Assembly (NCBI GenBank): GCA_900472785.1
Contig: UCJH01000028.1
Coordinates: forward strand, 169,031-233,030
Reading direction: 5' to 3'
Length of the DNA stretch: 64,000 bases
From: Hyphomicrobiales bacterium
GTDB taxonomy: Bacteria; Pseudomonadota; Alphaproteobacteria; Rhizobiales; Rhizobiaceae
Shown: positions 34,577 through 45,496 of the stretch, piece by piece
How positions within the stretch are numbered: position 1 is the first letter of the stretch
How the letters are laid out: each line of letters begins with the position of its first letter
The notes under the pieces: generated by a model
Told to the model about the DNA's origin: nothing
Seen by the model: only the letters and a program-made list of their open reading frames with translations
Databases searched by the model: none
Program-made: the position numbers and the translations under genes

Positions 34577-36217
<1,641 letters not shown>

Positions 36218-36253
36218 TCAATAGGCAGCTTTTTGACTGATGTACGCGCGGCC

Positions 36254-36568
36254 TTACGCGGCCCGCTTCTGCTCGACCTGGGCTTCGATGATACCCATGA
36301 CGTCACTTTCCTTCATGATCAGCAGGTCTTCGCCGTTGATCTTGATCTCGGTACCGGACCATTTGCCAAACAGGATGCGATCTCCGGCCTTGACGTCGAG
36401 CGCCTGGACCTGGCCAGCGTCGTTGCGAGCGCCGGAGCCGACGGCGATGACCTCGCCCTCCTGCGGCTTTTCCTTGGCGGTATCGGGGATGATGATGCCG
36501 CCCTTGGTCTTCTCTTCAGATTCGACGCGGCGGACGAGAATGCGATCGTGCAGCGGTCTAAACGACAT
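36254..36568 (-). CDS. groES: 10 kDa co-chaperonin GroES
   Basis: This 104-residue protein starts [25 protein letters not shown] precedes this ATG, so the six extra in-frame residues upstream are excluded. The mobile loop ([20 protein letters not shown]) and roof are intact. It caps GroEL rings. It is the first gene of the groESL operon, controlled by the CIRCE element about 150 bases upstream. Confidence 0.98.
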
Positions 36569-36716
36569 GTTTTCCTCCATGGACAAACAATGGTGACTTA
36601 GCTCTCCTGGCCGGATCGGATTGCCGCATCCGGCAGGATGCGAAACCTCCTTGAGCGTTTCGCGCGAGAAATTTATTTACGAGTTATTCCGATTACAAGA
36701 TGTCGCCGCAGAAAAA

Positions 36717-37793: not shown

Positions 37794-39488
37794 TTACTGT
37801 TTCTGGTGCGGCTTGTTCGTTTCGAGTACCGCGCTCAGGGCCTCCGACAATTCCGACAGCTCATAGGGCTTGCGCAGAATTTTGATGCCCTGAGCATCGG
37901 CGGCTTGCTTTGCAGCTTCCAAGTAACCGCTAGTCAGCAGAATGGGAAGGTCCCCGCGTCGCTTATGAATTTCCTGAGCAAGCTCTACGCCGTTCATGCC
38001 CCCCGGCATCATGATGTCGGAGAAAACAACGTCGATTGTCCGACCGTTCGCCAGCGCGCCAAGCGCTGCTGCTGCGGACGCCGCTCTTATGACCTGATAG
38101 CCAAGCTCGTCCAGCATTTCGCCGACGAGTGCGGCCACCTCCTCGTCGTCCTCGACGAGCAACACGGAGCCTGCTTGGGAAGGGCGCCGGCGCTCGACAT
38201 GAAGATCGACCAGATGATGCTGGTCTGGCGCGGGGTCCTTTGTCGAGCGCGGAAGCAGCATCGTGATTGTTGTCCCGCGACCGATGGCACTGTCGATTTC
38301 GATCGTTCCTCCGGACTGTTTTACAAAGCCATGCACCTGAGCCAGGCCGAGGCCGGACCCCTTGCCAATATCCTTGGTGGTGAAGAAGGGCTCGAATACG
38401 CGTGACTGTACTTCCCGGGTCATCCCCGTGCCATTGTCGCTGATGGAGAGCCGGACGAAGTCCCTTGCCGCATCGCTACCTTTAACGGAAGCATTTGAAG
38501 CAGTGATACGGATCGTGCCGCCGTTTGGCATCGCGTCACGGGCATTAACCGCAAGGTTTAGAACGACGAGTTCGAGCTCGCTGGCATCGACCTCGACCGG
38601 CCATAGGCCGGCGGCGAAATCGAAAGCCACTTCAACGTCGCCTCTTAGGCTGCGGTCGAGCAACTCGCGCATGCCGCCAATCTGGCGCTCAAGATCGACG
38701 GTCTGCGGCTTAAGTTCCTGGCGCCGCGAAAACGCGAGCAATTGCCGGGTGAGCCCCGACCCTCGCGCGGCTGCCTGCCGCATACCATCCATCAACCGTT
38801 TTTTTCGTGCCGAGTCGGTCTGTCGATCGAGCATCTCCAATCCTCCGGAGATGACCATCAGGAGATTGTTGAAGTCGTGGGCTACTCCACCCGTCAGCTG
38901 TCCGATGGCCTCGATCTTTTGCGCCTGCCGCAGCTTCTCTTCGACCAGAGCTTTGTTTGCCATCTGATCGCGCAGCGCCTCGTTGGCCGCTTTGAGCTCT
39001 TGCGTCCGGTTGGCAACCTGCGTTTCGAGTTCCTGCGCCGCGTGCTCACGTTCCTCAAGCAGGGTTCGAAGCTCTAGCTGGCGCCGACGCGCCCGAAGGG
39101 TCGCCTGAACCGTGCTGACGAGGGTGATGGTCTGGACAGGCCGCTCCAGGAAAGAGACGTTGCGAAGCCCGCTCATCAGCCGCTGGCGCCATCCGGCTAT
39201 GCCGGGTTGATCCTGTCGACTGGTAAGGACGATGAACGGCAGATCGGACCAGGCCGCCTGACGCTCAACCCACGTGAATAGCGAGCCTGCATCGCTTCCA
39301 AACAGCGCCTCTTCGGCAATGAAGGCGGCCGCCGCACCTCGCGTTAAAGCCTCGACGAGAGCGGCGAGATCGGAACAAGCCTCAGCGGCAACGCCGCTTC
39401 GCCTCAAGAGCTCGACAGAGGCCGCGGCGTCCCTGCCGATCGGCGCGAGGACGATAACCGGTGCAAGATCATGCTCAGACACTGCCAT
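37794..39488 (-). CDS. Hybrid histidine kinase with degenerate receiver, KaiC-linked
   Basis: This 564-residue protein has an N-terminal receiver-like domain (about 1-130) in which the phosphoacceptor position reads AAFIAEEAL (Glu) and the Lys loop reads FLERPV, so it is probably not phosphorylated. A coiled coil (EEREHAAQELETQVANRTQE) is followed by GQLTGGVAHDFNNLLMVISG with the phospho-His, an ATPase domain (NARDAMPNGG, DNGTGMTREV, GSGLGLAQVHG) and a C-terminal receiver (VLLVEDDEEVAAL, VVFSDIMMPGGMNG). The start overlaps the end of the KaiC-like gene by 14 bases; a GTG at 39482 is an alternative with better spacing to AAGG. Coupling suggests that the two proteins act together. Confidence 0.92.
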   Translation of the reverse strand: MAVSEHDLAPVIVLAPIGRDAAASVELLRRSGVAAEACSDLAALVEALTRGAAAAFIAEEALFGSDAGSLFTWVERQAAWSDLPFIVLTSRQDQPGIAGWRQRLMSGLRNVSFLERPVQTITLVSTVQATLRARRRQLELRTLLEEREHAAQELETQVANRTQELKAANEALRDQMANKALVEEKLRQAQKIEAIGQLTGGVAHDFNNLLMVISGGLEMLDRQTDSARKKRLMDGMRQAAARGSGLTRQLLAFSRRQELKPQTVDLERQIGGMRELLDRSLRGDVEVAFDFAAGLWPVEVDASELELVVLNLAVNARDAMPNGGTIRITASNASVKGSDAARDFVRLSISDNGTGMTREVQSRVFEPFFTTKDIGKGSGLGLAQVHGFVKQSGGTIEIDSAIGRGTTITMLLPRSTKDPAPDQHHLVDLHVERRRPSQAGSVLLVEDDEEVAALVGEMLDELGYQVIRAASAAAALGALANGRTIDVVFSDIMMPGGMNGVELAQEIHKRRGDLPILLTSGYLEAAKQAADAQGIKILRKPYELSELSEALSAVLETNKPHQKQ

Positions 39489-40995
39489 CCTTTCCGTTGG
39501 TCGCCTGCAACGGCAGCGCTGCGAACTGTGGTGTGCCGGCCAACACACCGGTGAACCCGGATGTTGGCTGTCCGATCTGGACGCCATTTTGCGAGAGCTT
39601 GAATTCGCGAACGGTATGCTCGTGCATCCCGCTGCGCTTCTTCACGACCGAAATCGCTCGCCGCACCGATCCCGCGGTCTCGAAGTAGCGCAACATGATG
39701 ACAGAATCGCTCAGATAGCTGAGATCAAGCGGAGCTTCCAGCGGGCCGACCAATCCGTGCTGTGCAAGCACGAGGATCGTCAGAACGCCGCGCTGGCCGA
39801 GATAGGTCAAAAGCTCGTGCATCTGCAGAATGAGAAAACGCTCGTCGGGCATAGCATTCAGGTAGCCGTTCAAGCTGTCGATAACGACAACTCTCGCGCC
39901 GTCGACCTCAACGCTGCGCTGGACATTTGCGGCAAACTCACCCGGGGCCATCTCGGCCGGATCGATCTGCTGCAAGCGGATCCGGCCGGATTCCAGATGG
40001 GTCTGAAGATCAAGGCCGAGGGTCCGCGCCCGCGCTTCAAGTGTACCCCGACCTTCGTCGAAGGCGTAGAAGACCGCATGCTCTCCTCTGTCGGCGGCAG
40101 CCAAGGCATAGGTGAGTGCGAGAGAAGATTTGCCCACGCCGGCGGCACCCAGGAACAGGGCATTGGTACCGCGCTCCAGTCCACCTCCCAGCATCTCGTC
40201 GAGGTCGGTATTGCCGCTCGGAGTGAACTCGACATCGAACGTTTTGTCATCGTGTCCGGAAGCGATCAGGCGGGGATATACCTGCAACCCGCCTTTTTCG
40301 ATCATGAAGTCATGGTAGCCGCCGCGAAACTTGATGCCGCGCATTTTCACGACCCTGAGGCGCCGGCGCTCTGCGCCGTAATCGACGGCATTCTGCTCCA
40401 GCAACAAGACACCGTGGGAGATCGAATGCAATTGCAGGTCGTTTTGTTGCGAGGAGAGGTCATCGAGTAGAATGACCGTGCATTGCCGGCTGGTGAAGAA
40501 GTGCTTCAAGGCGAGAACCTGTCGGCGGTAGCGCAGCGGGCTTTGCGCGAGCAGCCTCAGCTCCGAAAGGCTGTCAATCACGATCCGCCGCGGATTGAAC
40601 CCCTTCACCTTGTCCAGAATAAGCTTCGTGGTCTCGTTGAGCTCCATTTCGGCCGGATGAAAAACCGTCAGCTCTCGCTCTGGGTCAAGAGTAGTCTCGG
40701 GAGGAACAAGCTCGAAGACATCCACGTCGCGCAGCGACCATCCGTGACGCCGGGCCACCAATTGGAGCTCCTTCAGGGTTTCCGACAATGTGACGTAAAG
40801 AACCCGCTCGCCCTGACGCGCGCCCTCAAGCAAAAACTGCAGAGCTATCGTGGTCTTGCCGGTTCCAGGGCGGCCTTCATACAAGTACAGACGGTTTTCG
40901 TCCAAACCGCCACCCAGAATTACGTCGAGACCCGCTGCGCCGGTCGAAATCCGCGGAGGATCGATGTCGTCTGTCTCGTCAAACTCATCCGTCAT
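39475..40995 (-). CDS. KaiC-like double RecA-fold ATPase
   Basis: This 506-residue protein has two tandem KaiC domains. CI (about 15-245) carries Walker A GRPGTGKTT and TLSETLKEL, where KaiC has two catalytic glutamates but only the second remains; CII (about 255-490) carries GAAGVGKSS and AFDEGRGTL (Asp-Glu). Walker B sites are IVIDSLSEL and VVVIDSLNGYL. At the KaiC autophosphorylation site, LSYLSDSVIMLRY keeps the Ser431 equivalent but has Tyr for Thr432. No kaiA or kaiB is present. The gene overlaps a hybrid kinase gene, so it probably acts as an ATP-state input to phosphorelay signalling; a timing role is unproven. Confidence 0.93.
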   Translation of the reverse strand: MTDEFDETDDIDPPRISTGAAGLDVILGGGLDENRLYLYEGRPGTGKTTIALQFLLEGARQGERVLYVTLSETLKELQLVARRHGWSLRDVDVFELVPPETTLDPERELTVFHPAEMELNETTKLILDKVKGFNPRRIVIDSLSELRLLAQSPLRYRRQVLALKHFFTSRQCTVILLDDLSSQQNDLQLHSISHGVLLLEQNAVDYGAERRRLRVVKMRGIKFRGGYHDFMIEKGGLQVYPRLIASGHDDKTFDVEFTPSGNTDLDEMLGGGLERGTNALFLGAAGVGKSSLALTYALAAADRGEHAVFYAFDEGRGTLEARARTLGLDLQTHLESGRIRLQQIDPAEMAPGEFAANVQRSVEVDGARVVVIDSLNGYLNAMPDERFLILQMHELLTYLGQRGVLTILVLAQHGLVGPLEAPLDLSYLSDSVIMLRYFETAGSVRRAISVVKKRSGMHEHTVREFKLSQNGVQIGQPTSGFTGVLAGTPQFAALPLQATNGKDGSV

Positions 40996-41028
40996 TTTGT
41001 AACCCTACCTATTCGTCGCCGGAATACT

Positions 41029-41055
41029 GAACGCCCCCGTTACGTTTCAAGTTCC
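41029..41055 (-). promoter_or_regulatory. Weak EcfG-type promoter candidate for the KaiC-like operon
   Basis: GGAAC-N18-CGTT on the minus strand; the spacer is one base longer than the accepted range. The -10 lies 34 bases from the start at 40995. Confidence 0.3.
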
Positions 41056-41160
41056 CTGTTTCGTGCCGTTCGCCTCCTCGCCCGTTAGCAGACTTGCAGT
41101 ATGAGGCGCCGATCGTACGGATCTCTATTGCTGCCTCGTCACGGAATGCCAAAATGGGAT

Positions 41161-43092
41161 TCAGCGAGATTTCACAGCGGCCGCGAGCGCGTCATTCAGT
41201 TGCTTTTGGCTGAAGGGCTTGGGCAGTCGTGCAAGATCCGCCCCTTCTCCGCCCGGCAATTCCGCATACCCTGTCGCAAGGATCACCGCGATTTCAGGAT
41301 GCTGCGCGCGCAGCTGCCTGGCCAACTCCGCTCCCGTCATGTGAGGCATGGCGTGGTCGGTAATCAAAATGTCGGGGAGGGGCCTATGCTGAAGAAGCCT
41401 CAGAGCCTCCTCGCCTGAATTGGCTTCCAGCACCTTATGTCCGAGGTCCTCGAGCATAAAGACTGTATTCATCAGGACGAGGCTATCGTCATCGACTGCC
41501 ATCACCGTTAGCGACGGTAACGGACCTTCTCCCGGGACTTGTTCGACAGGCTCCGGCGCGGCGGTTGCCTTCGCCACGGGAAGCCATAGTTCTGCAGTCG
41601 TACCCTGGCCAACGGTCGACTTCATCAGCAGCTTTCCGCCTGACTGAGCCATCAGACCTTGCACCATGGGCAATCCGAGGCCCGTCCCCTTACCAATGCC
41701 CTTGGTGGTAAAGAAGGGCGTCGTTGCCTTCTCCAAGGTTTCGGCGTCCATGCCTTCGCCTTCGTCCTTGACGGAAAGACAGACATATTCGCCGGCCGCA
41801 AGGTCCGGGACCTGTTTCGGCTTCAGCGAATGTCTGCAGGCCGAGACGGCAATCGTACCACCCTCCGGCATAGCGTCGCGGGCATTAACGACGAGGTTAA
41901 GCAAGGCACTCTCGAGTTGGTTCGGATCGGAGAGGACCGGGGGAAGGGAAAGCGGGAATATGGTGCTGATCTCGATGGTCGGGCCAATGGTTCTTTGCAG
42001 CAACTCGGCCATCTCGCGGACGAGAGAAGGCGCGTCGACTGCCTCAAGCTTAAGGTCCTGCTTGCGAGAAAATGCGAGCAAACGTTGCGTCAGAGACGCC
42101 CCGCGCTTGGCGCCGGCGATCGCATTGTCGATGAGCTCGACGACATTCTGGCCTTCGAGCGCCCTTTTTCGGGCGATCTCGAGACTGCCGAGGATTGCCA
42201 TCAGAAGATTGTTGAAGTCATGTGCCACGCCACCGGTCAATTGTCCGACAGCCTCCATCTTCTGCGCCTGAAACAGTTCCTGCTGCGCCTGTTCGAGGGC
42301 TTGCTGGGCTTGGCGCTTCTCGGTGATGTCGCGTGTGACCTTGGCGAAGCCGACGATCTTGCCGTCCTCGAGCTGAATGGCGTCGATGATGACGTTGGCC
42401 CAGAAGCGCGTGCCGTCCTTGCGGACGCGCCAGCCTTCCTTTTCGTAGCGTCCTTCCTTTGCAGCGATTTCCAAAGCCTTTCTCGGAAGTTCATCAGCAC
42501 GGTCTTCCTCGACGTAGAAGCGCGAGAAGTGCTGGCCGATGATCTCCTCAGGTTCGTATCCCTTGATACGTTGGGCGCCGGCATTCCAAGTTGAAACGTT
42601 ACCTTCCGGGTCCAGCATATAGATGGCATAGTCGGTGACGCCTTGGATCAACAAGCGAAACTGGTCTTCGCTTCGTTTCAAAACCTCTTCTGCAATCTTC
42701 CTCTCTGAAAGATCGCGCGTGATCTTGGCAAATCCAAGCAATTGACCGTGCTGATCCCGGATCGCATCGATGACGACATGCGCCCAGAATCGCTCGCCGT
42801 CCTTACGAACGCGCCATCCCTCGGCTTCGAATCGCCCTTCGGTCTCAGCCGTCAAAAGAGCCTTGGCTGGAATTCCGGCAGCCAGATCTTCCGGCGTGTA
42901 GAACCGTGAAAAGTGTTCCCCGAGGATTTCGGACTCTGTATAGCCCTTGAAGCGCTGGGCGCCGGCGTTCCAGCTCGATATCCGACCCTCGGTGTCGAGC
43001 ATGTAAATAGCATAATCGGTAATAGCATCGACTAGCAGGCGGTACCGCCCCTCCATGGACGCCGCCTGTAACGTCGCAACATGTGAAGTCAC
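41161..43092 (-). CDS. PAS-PAS hybrid histidine kinase
   Basis: This 643-residue soluble kinase has two nearly duplicate PAS domains (about 14-130 and 140-260: DYAIYMLDTEGRISSWNAGA / DYAIYMLDPEGNVSTWNAGA; both with HFSRFY), then GQLTGGVAHDFNNLLMAILG with the phospho-His, an ATPase domain (NARDAMPEGG, DEGEGMDAETL, GTGLGLPMVQG) and a receiver (VMAVDDDSLVLM, ILITDHAMPHMTG). An EcfG-type promoter lies 115 bases upstream. It sits 165 bp upstream of the KaiC-like gene on the same strand and may be co-expressed with it. The PAS ligand is unknown. Confidence 0.93.
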   Translation of the reverse strand: MTSHVATLQAASMEGRYRLLVDAITDYAIYMLDTEGRISSWNAGAQRFKGYTESEILGEHFSRFYTPEDLAAGIPAKALLTAETEGRFEAEGWRVRKDGERFWAHVVIDAIRDQHGQLLGFAKITRDLSERKIAEEVLKRSEDQFRLLIQGVTDYAIYMLDPEGNVSTWNAGAQRIKGYEPEEIIGQHFSRFYVEEDRADELPRKALEIAAKEGRYEKEGWRVRKDGTRFWANVIIDAIQLEDGKIVGFAKVTRDITEKRQAQQALEQAQQELFQAQKMEAVGQLTGGVAHDFNNLLMAILGSLEIARKRALEGQNVVELIDNAIAGAKRGASLTQRLLAFSRKQDLKLEAVDAPSLVREMAELLQRTIGPTIEISTIFPLSLPPVLSDPNQLESALLNLVVNARDAMPEGGTIAVSACRHSLKPKQVPDLAAGEYVCLSVKDEGEGMDAETLEKATTPFFTTKGIGKGTGLGLPMVQGLMAQSGGKLLMKSTVGQGTTAELWLPVAKATAAPEPVEQVPGEGPLPSLTVMAVDDDSLVLMNTVFMLEDLGHKVLEANSGEEALRLLQHRPLPDILITDHAMPHMTGAELARQLRAQHPEIAVILATGYAELPGGEGADLARLPKPFSQKQLNDALAAAVKSR

Positions 43093-43206: not shown

Positions 43207-43231
43207 AACGCACTGCGAGGTCTTTGGTTCC
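43207..43231 (-). promoter_or_regulatory. EcfG/RpoE2-type promoter for the PAS kinase
   Basis: GGAAC-N16-CGTT on the minus strand is a full consensus match; it lies 115 bases before the start at 43092. Confidence 0.6.
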
Positions 43232-43666: not shown

Positions 43667-43692
43667 GGAACCCAGGCTTCAAGAATGACGTT
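43667..43692 (+). promoter_or_regulatory. EcfG/RpoE2-type promoter for the 219-aa membrane protein
   Basis: GGAAC-N17-CGTT, a full consensus match, ends 37 bases before the GTG start at 43729. Confidence 0.75.
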
Positions 43693-43728: not shown

Positions 43729-44388
43729 GTGCGGTCAATCAAAGATAATGGGCTGACAATCGTTCTTCTGGTGCTAACCGTTGCGACCATCCTGGGAATG
43801 CTTCTGACGGGATGGCAGGTTAACAACGAGGAAATCGCCCAGCATGGCGGCATGCCGCTTTCGCTCGCAGTTTACGCTCTATCGGGACACTTCCTGTCGG
43901 CCATCTTCGAAAACTGGGAAAGCGAGTTCCTGCAGATGTCGGCCTACGTAATGCTGACGGCAATGCTGTTCCAGCGCGGTTCAGCTGAATCAAAGGATCC
44001 TGATCAGCCCGCTTCTCAGGATGAAGATCCCTCATCAAAGAGCGGCAACCGGGATGCTCCTTGGCCCGTCCGGGTTGGTGGATTGGCGCGGACGCTTTAC
44101 TCCTATTCGCTGGGCATTGCGCTCGCTTTGCTGTTCGTCGCCAGCTTCATTCTCCACCTCCGCTATAGTGCTGCAGCGGAAAACGCGGAAGCTGCGATGC
44201 ATGGCCAGCCAGCGCAGTCGATGATGGAGCATCTCGCCAGCGCACAGTTCTGGTTTGAATCATTTCAAAACTGGCAGTCCGAATTCCTATCAACGGCAGT
44301 GATCGTGGTGCTATCGATACTCTTGAGGTTTCGAGGTTCGCCCGAATCCAAACCCGTCGCCGCTCCGCATTCCGAGACCGGAAGTTGA
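43729..44388 (+). CDS. DUF6766-like membrane protein with internal duplication
   Basis: This 219-residue protein starts at GTG after AAGGGA. It has four hydrophobic segments in two similar halves: the first half contains SAIFENWESEFLQMSAYVML, the second FESFQNWQSEFLSTAVIVVL, each preceded by a membrane helix and followed by a short RGS-ESK tail. The halves are joined by a polar linker (about residues 86-110). Homologues are annotated DUF6766, of unknown function. A consensus EcfG promoter directly upstream makes it a general stress gene. Confidence 0.85.
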   Translation: MRSIKDNGLTIVLLVLTVATILGMLLTGWQVNNEEIAQHGGMPLSLAVYALSGHFLSAIFENWESEFLQMSAYVMLTAMLFQRGSAESKDPDQPASQDEDPSSKSGNRDAPWPVRVGGLARTLYSYSLGIALALLFVASFILHLRYSAAAENAEAAMHGQPAQSMMEHLASAQFWFESFQNWQSEFLSTAVIVVLSILLRFRGSPESKPVAAPHSETGS

Positions 44389-44422: not shown

Positions 44423-45496
44423 TTAAGGCCGGTCCTGCATTCGTGCCCCCACATGGTCCAAAGATGGGAGGTCTATGACCAGCAATAGTCCATCGTCGCG
44501 CCAGTCGCGAGAGATCCGGCCTCCCAACTGCTTCTCAACGACAGCACTTAGCAGTACGTTACCGAAGCCGCGTCCTGGCTCCTGGTTTGAACGAGCGGTG
44601 CCAAACTCATGCCAGATCAACGTCAAACCTCTGTCATGGGTTTCCCAAGTGATCCTGAGCCGTCCCTTCACGTGTGCGATCGCTCCGTGAACAGCCGCAT
44701 TCGCAGCCAGCTCATGGATAGCCAGCCCGATTGGCTGAGCTGAAGGTGCAGGAACCATGACCGCGGGACCGGCGATCTCGATGTTGCGGCTCCCGAACAC
44801 CTGTGCCTGAGCGCGTATGATCTCGGTCAGTTCGACTTCCTGCCAATTTTTTTCCGAAAGGAGGATGTGCGTGCGCGAAAGGGCCTGGACACGCTGCTGG
44901 ACGGACGCGGCATTATCGGATTTCGAGAGACGCACGATGCTATCGACGATTGCCAAAACATTCTTTGTCCGATGATCAACTTCGAGGAGGAGCCGGTGCT
45001 CGGCGTCTTCGAGCGTTTGAATCCGGCGATAGTCGGTGACGTCGACCTGCGAAGCAAAATAGTAGGCAAGTTCGCCATGCTCATCGTGAATCGGGCTCAG
45101 GTGCAATTGGTTCCAGAATTGCGTACCGTCTTTCTTGTAGTTCAGAATTTCGGTGGTCATTTCGCGCTGCTGGGCAATGGCTGCACGAATCTGTGCGATT
45201 GCCGTCTTGGACGTCGCTTCTCCCTGAAGGAGCCGGCAGTTTTTGCCAAGAAGGTCCTCGGCGGTGTAGCCGGTCAGATCGAGAAAGGCATCGTTCGCCA
45301 GCACAATCGGAAATTCAGGTCCCCGTGCATCGGAGACGACCATCGGCATCCTTGTGCGCTGGAAGGCGAAAGCAGCGAGTTCTTTACGGTCAACCATTCC
45401 TTGTTTTGTCGCCGCGGCAGGATTGTCGCCATGAATGTCGGATGGTTGGGAACGAGACAATGTTGACCTCAAGACGCTTCGCGAGGCTAAACGCAA
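44423..45496 (-). CDS. LOV-domain HWE-family histidine kinase (blue-light sensor)
   Basis: The protein (up to 357 residues) has a PAS/LOV domain with the flavin-adduct motif GKNCRLLQG (canonical GRNCRFLQ) and LNYKKDGTQFWNQLHLSPIH, then an HWE-type dimerisation helix (EVDHRTKNVLAIVDSIVRLS, phospho-His in HRTKN) and an ATPase domain with IHELAANAAVHGAI and GRGFGNVLLSAVV. The start is uncertain: TTG at 45496, TTG about 45460 behind GAGG, or ATG at 45397. Brucella and rhizobial LOV-HWE kinases respond to blue light and feed the PhyR/EcfG stress pathway, which fits this neighbourhood. Confidence 0.9.
   Translation of the reverse strand: MRLASRSVLRSTLSRSQPSDIHGDNPAAATKQGMVDRKELAAFAFQRTRMPMVVSDARGPEFPIVLANDAFLDLTGYTAEDLLGKNCRLLQGEATSKTAIAQIRAAIAQQREMTTEILNYKKDGTQFWNQLHLSPIHDEHGELAYYFASQVDVTDYRRIQTLEDAEHRLLLEVDHRTKNVLAIVDSIVRLSKSDNAASVQQRVQALSRTHILLSEKNWQEVELTEIIRAQAQVFGSRNIEIAGPAVMVPAPSAQPIGLAIHELAANAAVHGAIAHVKGRLRITWETHDRGLTLIWHEFGTARSNQEPGRGFGNVLLSAVVEKQLGGRISRDWRDDGLLLVIDLPSLDHVGARMQDRP

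Follow-up and report, generated by a model that had tools for sequence, protein, structure and literature searches.

How a KaiC-type ATPase might signal in a genome in which searches found neither of its clock partners KaiA and KaiB was the question raised by a locus in the 64,000-nt stretch of contig UCJH01000028.1 (Hyphomicrobiales bacterium, assembly GCA_900472785.1, positions 169,031 to 233,030), which we refer to in its entirety as the window. The initial annotation of this DNA described a double-domain KaiC homologue overlapping one hybrid kinase, here called HK1, and a PAS-PAS hybrid kinase, here HK2, upstream of it, and both descriptions agreed with the domain assignments and coordinates that we obtained (Table 1). 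KaiC and HK1 turned out to be one conserved unit. Our favoured reading, with a probability of about 0.65, is that they form a two-protein signalling unit in which the state of KaiC gates the kinase through the N-terminal pseudo-receiver (PsR) domain of HK1.

The pairing was surveyed with separate KaiC and PsR profiles in 150 genomes of the order and 398 genomes of the phylum, scoring at most 28 PsR and 10 KaiC candidates per genome in the order and at most 10 and 3 in the phylum, so that an absence is not proof. Conservation of the gene pair across genomes, as expected from the initial annotation, was evident at both levels. All 18 PsR matches in the order lay directly 3′ of a KaiC (compared by eye), and 18 of the 19 KaiCs were followed by a PsR domain. 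Matches below E 1e-14 were found in 36 of the phylum genomes; 40 of these 42 matches sat 3′ of a KaiC, and each of the 40 KaiCs below E 1e-190 was followed by the domain. Seven more genomes had weak matches only (~E 1e-7); the seven matches at this level, left out of the 42 for having no KaiC row, are probably ordinary receivers. A scan of genome contigs with the domain alone returned at least 586 PsR relatives, and in the best 80 of these, on which our locus counts rest, a KaiC ended directly upstream of the PsR kinase in every case (80/80; in L158 this KaiC is truncated by the contig end). The commonest kaiC/kinase junction, taken at the in-frame start codon nearest the kaiC stop, was a 4-nt overlap (24/80), and no KaiC-PsR fusion occurred among the fetched loci. 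The 23 weaker KaiC rows of the phylum (E 1e-118 to 1e-51) had no PsR match downstream, and 18 loci of such KaiCs (17 of the 23 rows and G089) showed an adjacent KaiB in 10 cases, a single receiver gene next in 4 and neither in 4. In L243, L245, L247 and L248 the gene next after a KaiC of another class codes for a single-domain receiver and not for a PsR kinase or KaiB, and Pfam confirmed the receiver in both loci tested, L245 and L247. On plasmid pAt of Agrobacterium fabrum C58 (L257) the pair corresponds to ATU_RS26320 and ATU_RS26315, with a 17-nt overlap, the kinase ATU_RS26315 being annotated simply as 'response regulator'.

The N-terminal domain of HK1 had no Pfam match in the window protein, and Pfam receiver or PsR models matched 0 of 23 PsR domains at E 0.1. 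Its predicted model adopted the (beta-alpha)5 fold of receivers, and the best structure matches listed for the model were receivers or response regulators. Among the matches listed there was no KaiB or thioredoxin-fold title, although such a list does not exclude a KaiB-like fold. The phospho-Asp column (HK1 residue 59) held Asp in 4 and Glu in 105 of 127 pairs, leaving 123 without the phosphoacceptor; the flanking columns 58 and 60 held Asp in 0 and 1 of 127, and the Lys position before Pro was Arg in all 127, these columns and the Lys position having been placed from the model and motifs and not by residue-level structural alignment. The predicted receiver fold and the missing Asp upheld the earlier description of a receiver without phosphoacceptor, and on the predicted model the domain is a pseudo-receiver, of a family without a name as far as Pfam goes.

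The PsR appeared to follow KaiC while the kinase core behind it changed. All 129 paired KaiCs fell on one side of a single branch of the KaiC tree (SH 99, FastTree), on which HisKA and HWE cores behind the PsR replaced one another four or more times. The 127 kinases comprised 98 PsR-HisKA-REC, 10 PsR-HisKA and 18 PsR-HWE proteins and one PsR-only open reading frame (ORF), types assigned with home-made profiles and checked with Pfam in five PsR kinases (window, C70, C111, L055, L237 and L238, less one repeat). Evolutionary distances between PsR domains correlated more closely with those of KaiC (r 0.92) than with those of the core in their own chain (0.80; 106 pairs). Because PsR distances follow KaiC more closely than the core, and the cores were exchanged, these comparisons suggest that the PsR belongs with KaiC and not with its kinase core, which argues for, and does not prove, the PsR as the contact with KaiC. 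Covariation between KaiC and PsR exceeded that in shuffles (top-25 mean of 0.326 against 0.309 over 30 within-cluster shuffles; standard deviation 0.005, highest 0.321), its best pair joining the Ser/Thr phosphosite to the PsR residue after Arg-Pro (Ser with Val, Ile or Leu; Thr with Phe) in 127/127.

Aligned with solved KaiC, the window protein carried S426 for S431 and Y427 for T432 (S. elongatus numbering), and the catalytic Glu pairs read S71-E72 in CI and D313-E314 in CII, the latter a change absent from the list of the initial annotation. Among 127 aligned paired KaiCs (next to 22 unpaired ones, after L156, L176 and L183 had been moved to the paired set), the S431 position was Thr in 97 and Ser in 30, hence a hydroxyl residue throughout, and the T432 position Tyr in 116 and Phe in 11. 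Position E77, the first Glu of CI, carried Ser in 125 KaiCs and Ala in the other 2; E78, the second, was conserved in 116, with Gln in the remaining 11. In CII the first Glu was present in 12 KaiCs and exchanged for Asp in 115, and the second was present in all. Neither two adjacent Ser/Thr phosphoacceptors nor the CI pair of catalytic Glu, both present in the KaiABC/KaiBC clock, was found in any of the 127, the first CI Glu being Ser or Ala in each. The initial annotation had therefore named the residues correctly (Ser431 kept, Tyr for Thr432, one CI Glu lost), but its reading of them as losses did not hold: Tyr or Phe at T432 and the missing CI Glu run through all 127 KaiCs and so are traits of the clade, not decay. 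The cyanobacterial clock KaiC runs through an ordered two-site Ser/Thr phosphorylation cycle. Judged from its residues, this form of KaiC is incapable of such a cycle, and a one-site switch is possible. A possible second site is seen in the Tyr by De Luca and colleagues (PMC3164672, published in 2011); Phe in 11 KaiCs means that a Tyr second site is dispensable and rules out a two-site cycle in at least these 11 of the 127.

Searches of the window's own genome with the KaiA (PF07688) and KaiB (PF07689) profiles returned no match, in line with the reported lack of both. The KaiB profile likewise matched in 0 of the best 80 of at least 586 PsR loci, and the same profile detected KaiB in 10 weaker-KaiC loci. 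The absence of kaiB is not universal in the clade, as the G168 genome has both a KaiC-PsR pair and a kaiBC cluster. The window's genome has three KaiCs of this type, and behind each comes a kinase that shares the N-terminal domain; the kinases differ in architecture, being HisKA-REC in the window, PAS-HisKA-REC in C70, and HWE with a separate single receiver gene in C111 (45.7 kb).

The arrangement itself is already known, because De Luca et al. described a second kaiC context in which kaiC is systematically followed by a specific kinase, without kaiB and with SY, TY or SF sites (PMC3164672). The same sections report co-transcription of kaiC and kinase in Ramlibacter by reverse-transcription PCR, propose the N-terminal module of the kinase as a KaiC binder and suggest an hourglass. 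The window pair fits this context, the dark-blue group there (for example Rta_04330/Rta_04340 of Ramlibacter tataouinensis): kaiC directly precedes, on the same strand, a kinase with a conserved N-terminal domain, the site is SY, and no kaiB was found in the genome. In the 2011 work the N-terminal domain, RtaNt, was likened to SasA/KaiB and to a receiver, whereas the fold predicted here is that of a receiver; De Luca's description, not an alignment, suggests that PsR and RtaNt are the same. The present loci add kinases with an HWE core and a promoter motif of the stress type. New relative to 2011 are the predicted pseudo-receiver fold, the large-scale two-way pairing, the core exchange, the invariant Ser/Thr site, a possible tie to stress and the observation that kaiB is not always absent (G168). 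In the open-licence literature covered, in part as extracts, the Ramlibacter experiment was the only one found on a KaiC-PsR kinase pair. The KaiBC hourglass of Rhodobacter sphaeroides is similar in having KaiC without KaiA and a kinase in the operon (PMC5520375, as excerpted) and differs in having KaiB; the solved chains of the Rhodobacter KaiC, 8db3 and 8dba, gave a less complete alignment to the window KaiC than KaiC of the cyanobacterial type did. SasA and CikA are kinases tied to the cyanobacterial KaiC clock, and CikA, like HK1, has a pseudo-receiver. In SasA, however, a KaiB-like domain does the reading of KaiC (PMC5520375), and the PsR of CikA binds KaiB (PMC12632262). The Caulobacter hybrid kinase ShkA is gated by a PsR, as HK1 may be, but its input is c-di-GMP, and the excerpted part of the review mentions no KaiC partner (PMC12632262).

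HK2 fared differently from HK1. An HK2-like kinase lay within 2.5 kb upstream of the pair in 1 of 76 loci, so HK2 was rejected as a third conserved member and stays a possible co-regulated gene; of the proposed coupling of KaiC to two hybrid kinases, only that to HK1 stood, though regulation of HK2 may be shared. The whole 64 kb held three exact EcfG-type promoter motifs, ahead of kaiC, HK2 and the DUF6766 gene only (Table 1), a spacing of 17 being accepted in this motif as well as 16. At least three matches arose in 14 of 100 window shuffles, which makes the count ordinary and the placement unusual. The EcfG1 motif of Rhizobium etli is given as GGAAC-N16-CGTT in the portion of PMC3892343 consulted. 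We scanned 131 paired rows (not de-duplicated, 127 distinct) and 29 'unpaired' rows (including mis-assigned paired KaiCs) with spacings of 15-18, all exact matches listed having 16 or 17. The exact motif preceded 15 of the 131 paired KaiCs, where shuffles gave 0.5 (maximum 2 of 20), 1 of the 29 unpaired rows, and, at spacing 16-17, 5 of 815 other ORFs in the genus and genome-contig loci. With one mismatch allowed, it preceded 57/131 paired KaiCs, compared with 17.7 after shuffling (maximum 27), and 5/29 unpaired rows, compared with 4.2. NepR, a component of the EcfG system, had two matches in the window's genome. The pair may thus be tied to the general stress response.

KaiC is presumably an ATPase of the RecA fold that forms hexamers and whose CII offers one Ser/Thr for phosphorylation. 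In the mechanism that we favour, it would be made together with HK1 via the overlapping reading frames and would dock on the PsR of HK1. The kinase core would then receive the nucleotide or phosphorylation state of KaiC by way of the PsR and the helix behind it, the kinase/phosphatase balance of HK1 would change, and phosphate would travel from His204 to Asp491 of the C-terminal receiver and on to a further partner. Binding, the direction from KaiC to kinase, the nature of the signal (energy or stress state) and use in the general stress response are inferred. We judge a physical partnership highly probable and an action of KaiC on the kinase probable, and place a stress or energy input, as opposed to timekeeping, at slightly under even odds; an oscillator is very unlikely and a one-way timer possible. 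Several points weigh against the proposed unit. Two PsR kinases, at L237 4953-6350 and L238 3827-6139, had no KaiC match nearby, each genome also having a normal KaiC-PsR pair. The tree was built with FastTree only, had support below 80 at 34 of its 148 inner branches and carried a long-branch warning, and shared ancestry and the unequal lengths of the compared parts can make distance correlations too high. Covariation was rejected as evidence of contact: its best pair reflects one change on the tree, and six further top pairs had too few independent changes. Finally, the exact EcfG motif occurred in only 15/131 paired loci and in 1 of 19 loci of the genus, the window's own, and may therefore be a local trait.

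De Luca et al. suggested an hourglass timer for this very kaiC-kinase context, with the Ramlibacter co-transcription alongside (PMC3164672): KaiC would slowly autophosphorylate and be dephosphorylated at one site, driven by day/night changes in ATP/ADP, and the kinase would read this out. The Rhodobacter KaiBC hourglass, set by ATP/ADP according to the excerpted text of PMC10076222, and the hydroxyl at the S431 site in 127/127 KaiCs favour it, but with no KaiB match in the window's genome or the 80 loci, and with Tyr (116) or Phe (11) precluding a two-site cycle in at least 11/127, we regard it as rather unlikely. Signalling might also run in reverse, phosphorelay input from the kinase tuning KaiC as the effector; the symmetric pairing gives no direction, and the PAS domain of the sister kinase C70 indicates that the kinase may carry a sensor. 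Such a direction seems improbable to us, given that the output receiver of HK1 is intact and that KaiC retains its PsR-bearing partner across changes of the kinase core.

Two further explanations take KaiC and HK1 either apart or into a larger system. A PsR acting as a ligand-binding switch, like the c-di-GMP PsR of ShkA, with no KaiC contact and with joint regulation as the sole link of the pair, would accord with the small molecules bound by the PsRs of ShkA, CikA and KaiA (PMC12632262, as excerpted); it is nevertheless highly improbable, leaving unexplained both the closer evolutionary match of the PsR to KaiC than to its own core and the position of nearly all examined PsR copies next to a KaiC. 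A three-gene phosphorelay of HK2, KaiC and HK1 in the general stress response would agree with the perfect motifs before HK2, KaiC and DUF6766, the sole three in 64 kb, with the two NepR matches and with HK2 relatives near KaiC pairs in two other genomes of the genus, L046 (65% over a single-PAS form) and L056 (72%). The exact motif is, however, absent from both of these loci, three or more motifs arose in 14/100 shuffles of the window, and an HK2-like kinase lay close upstream at 1/76 loci, which makes such a relay unlikely.

The features of the locus are collected in Table 1; on the minus strand the order is HK2, kaiC, HK1. Upstream of the HK1 start, which is the ATG at 39488 within the last kaiC codons, the frame extends to 39587 and gives a 597-aa ORF.

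Table 1. Positions of the KaiC-HK1 pair and neighbouring features within the window
Feature	Position	Strand	Details or basis
KaiC, double-domain ATPase, 506 aa, two PF06745 domains	39475..40995	-	Pfam and ORF
HK1, PsR-HisKA-HATPase-REC hybrid kinase, 564 aa	37794..39488	-	start ATG 39488
kaiC end / HK1 start overlap	39475..39488	-	14 bp
Pseudo-receiver (PsR), HK1 N-terminal domain	39075..39473	-	predicted model and profiles
HK1 C-terminal receiver	37836..38165	-	residues 442-551; Asp491, Thr and Lys motifs intact
KaiC Ser426 codon (S431 equivalent)	39718..39720	-	Tyr427 codon next, 39715-39717
EcfG-type motif GGAAC-N17-CGTT	41030..41055	-	34 nt ahead of kaiC
HK2, PAS-PAS-HisKA-HATPase-REC hybrid kinase	41161..43092	-	neighbour outside conserved pair
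EcfG-type motif GGAAC-N16-CGTT	43207..43231	-	114 nt ahead of HK2
EcfG-type motif GGAAC-N17-CGTT	43667..43692	+	36 nt ahead of divergent DUF6766 gene
DUF6766 (PF20554) gene, divergent	43729-44388	+	Pfam

Plasmid records matched the KaiC at 81-83% identity in Neorhizobium and the groESL region at 91% in Agrobacterium. This groESL copy (34577-36586) adjoins the window KaiC pair; in L063 (2628-6459), from another genome of the genus, a different KaiC pair (type B, PsR-HWE) neighbours relatives of groES and orf106, and type B pairs at three more loci, L042, L057 and L058, have short groEL-like pieces nearby. Beside the KaiC cluster, a PAS-HWE histidine kinase (44423-45496, minus strand) contains the PAS motif GKNCRLLQG, which we take to be LOV-like. 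According to published abstracts, other alphaproteobacteria use LOV-HWE kinases in their general stress response. A reading of the locus as a defence system was rejected on the weak matches that PADLOC gave. One in-frame stop lies inside the KaiC match in each of G048:C1004, G060:C1 (7406503) and G146:C2.

We tentatively propose that reading KaiC is the dedicated role of the PsR, which could plug KaiC into exchangeable HisKA or HWE cores without KaiB or a KaiB-like domain, and which may be used here in the alphaproteobacterial general stress response. Non-cyanobacterial KaiC homologues must signal by an output pathway other than the cyanobacterial one (PMC5520375, as excerpted), and what switches bacterial pseudo-receivers is called the central unanswered question in the part of a 2025 review used here (PMC12632262). 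If true, a KaiC-reading PsR would give a regulator to a pseudo-receiver family and would bear on that question; the pair would offer a definite partner, and an interface open to experiment, for onward signalling by non-cyanobacterial KaiC, and may link the KaiC ATPase with the general stress response.

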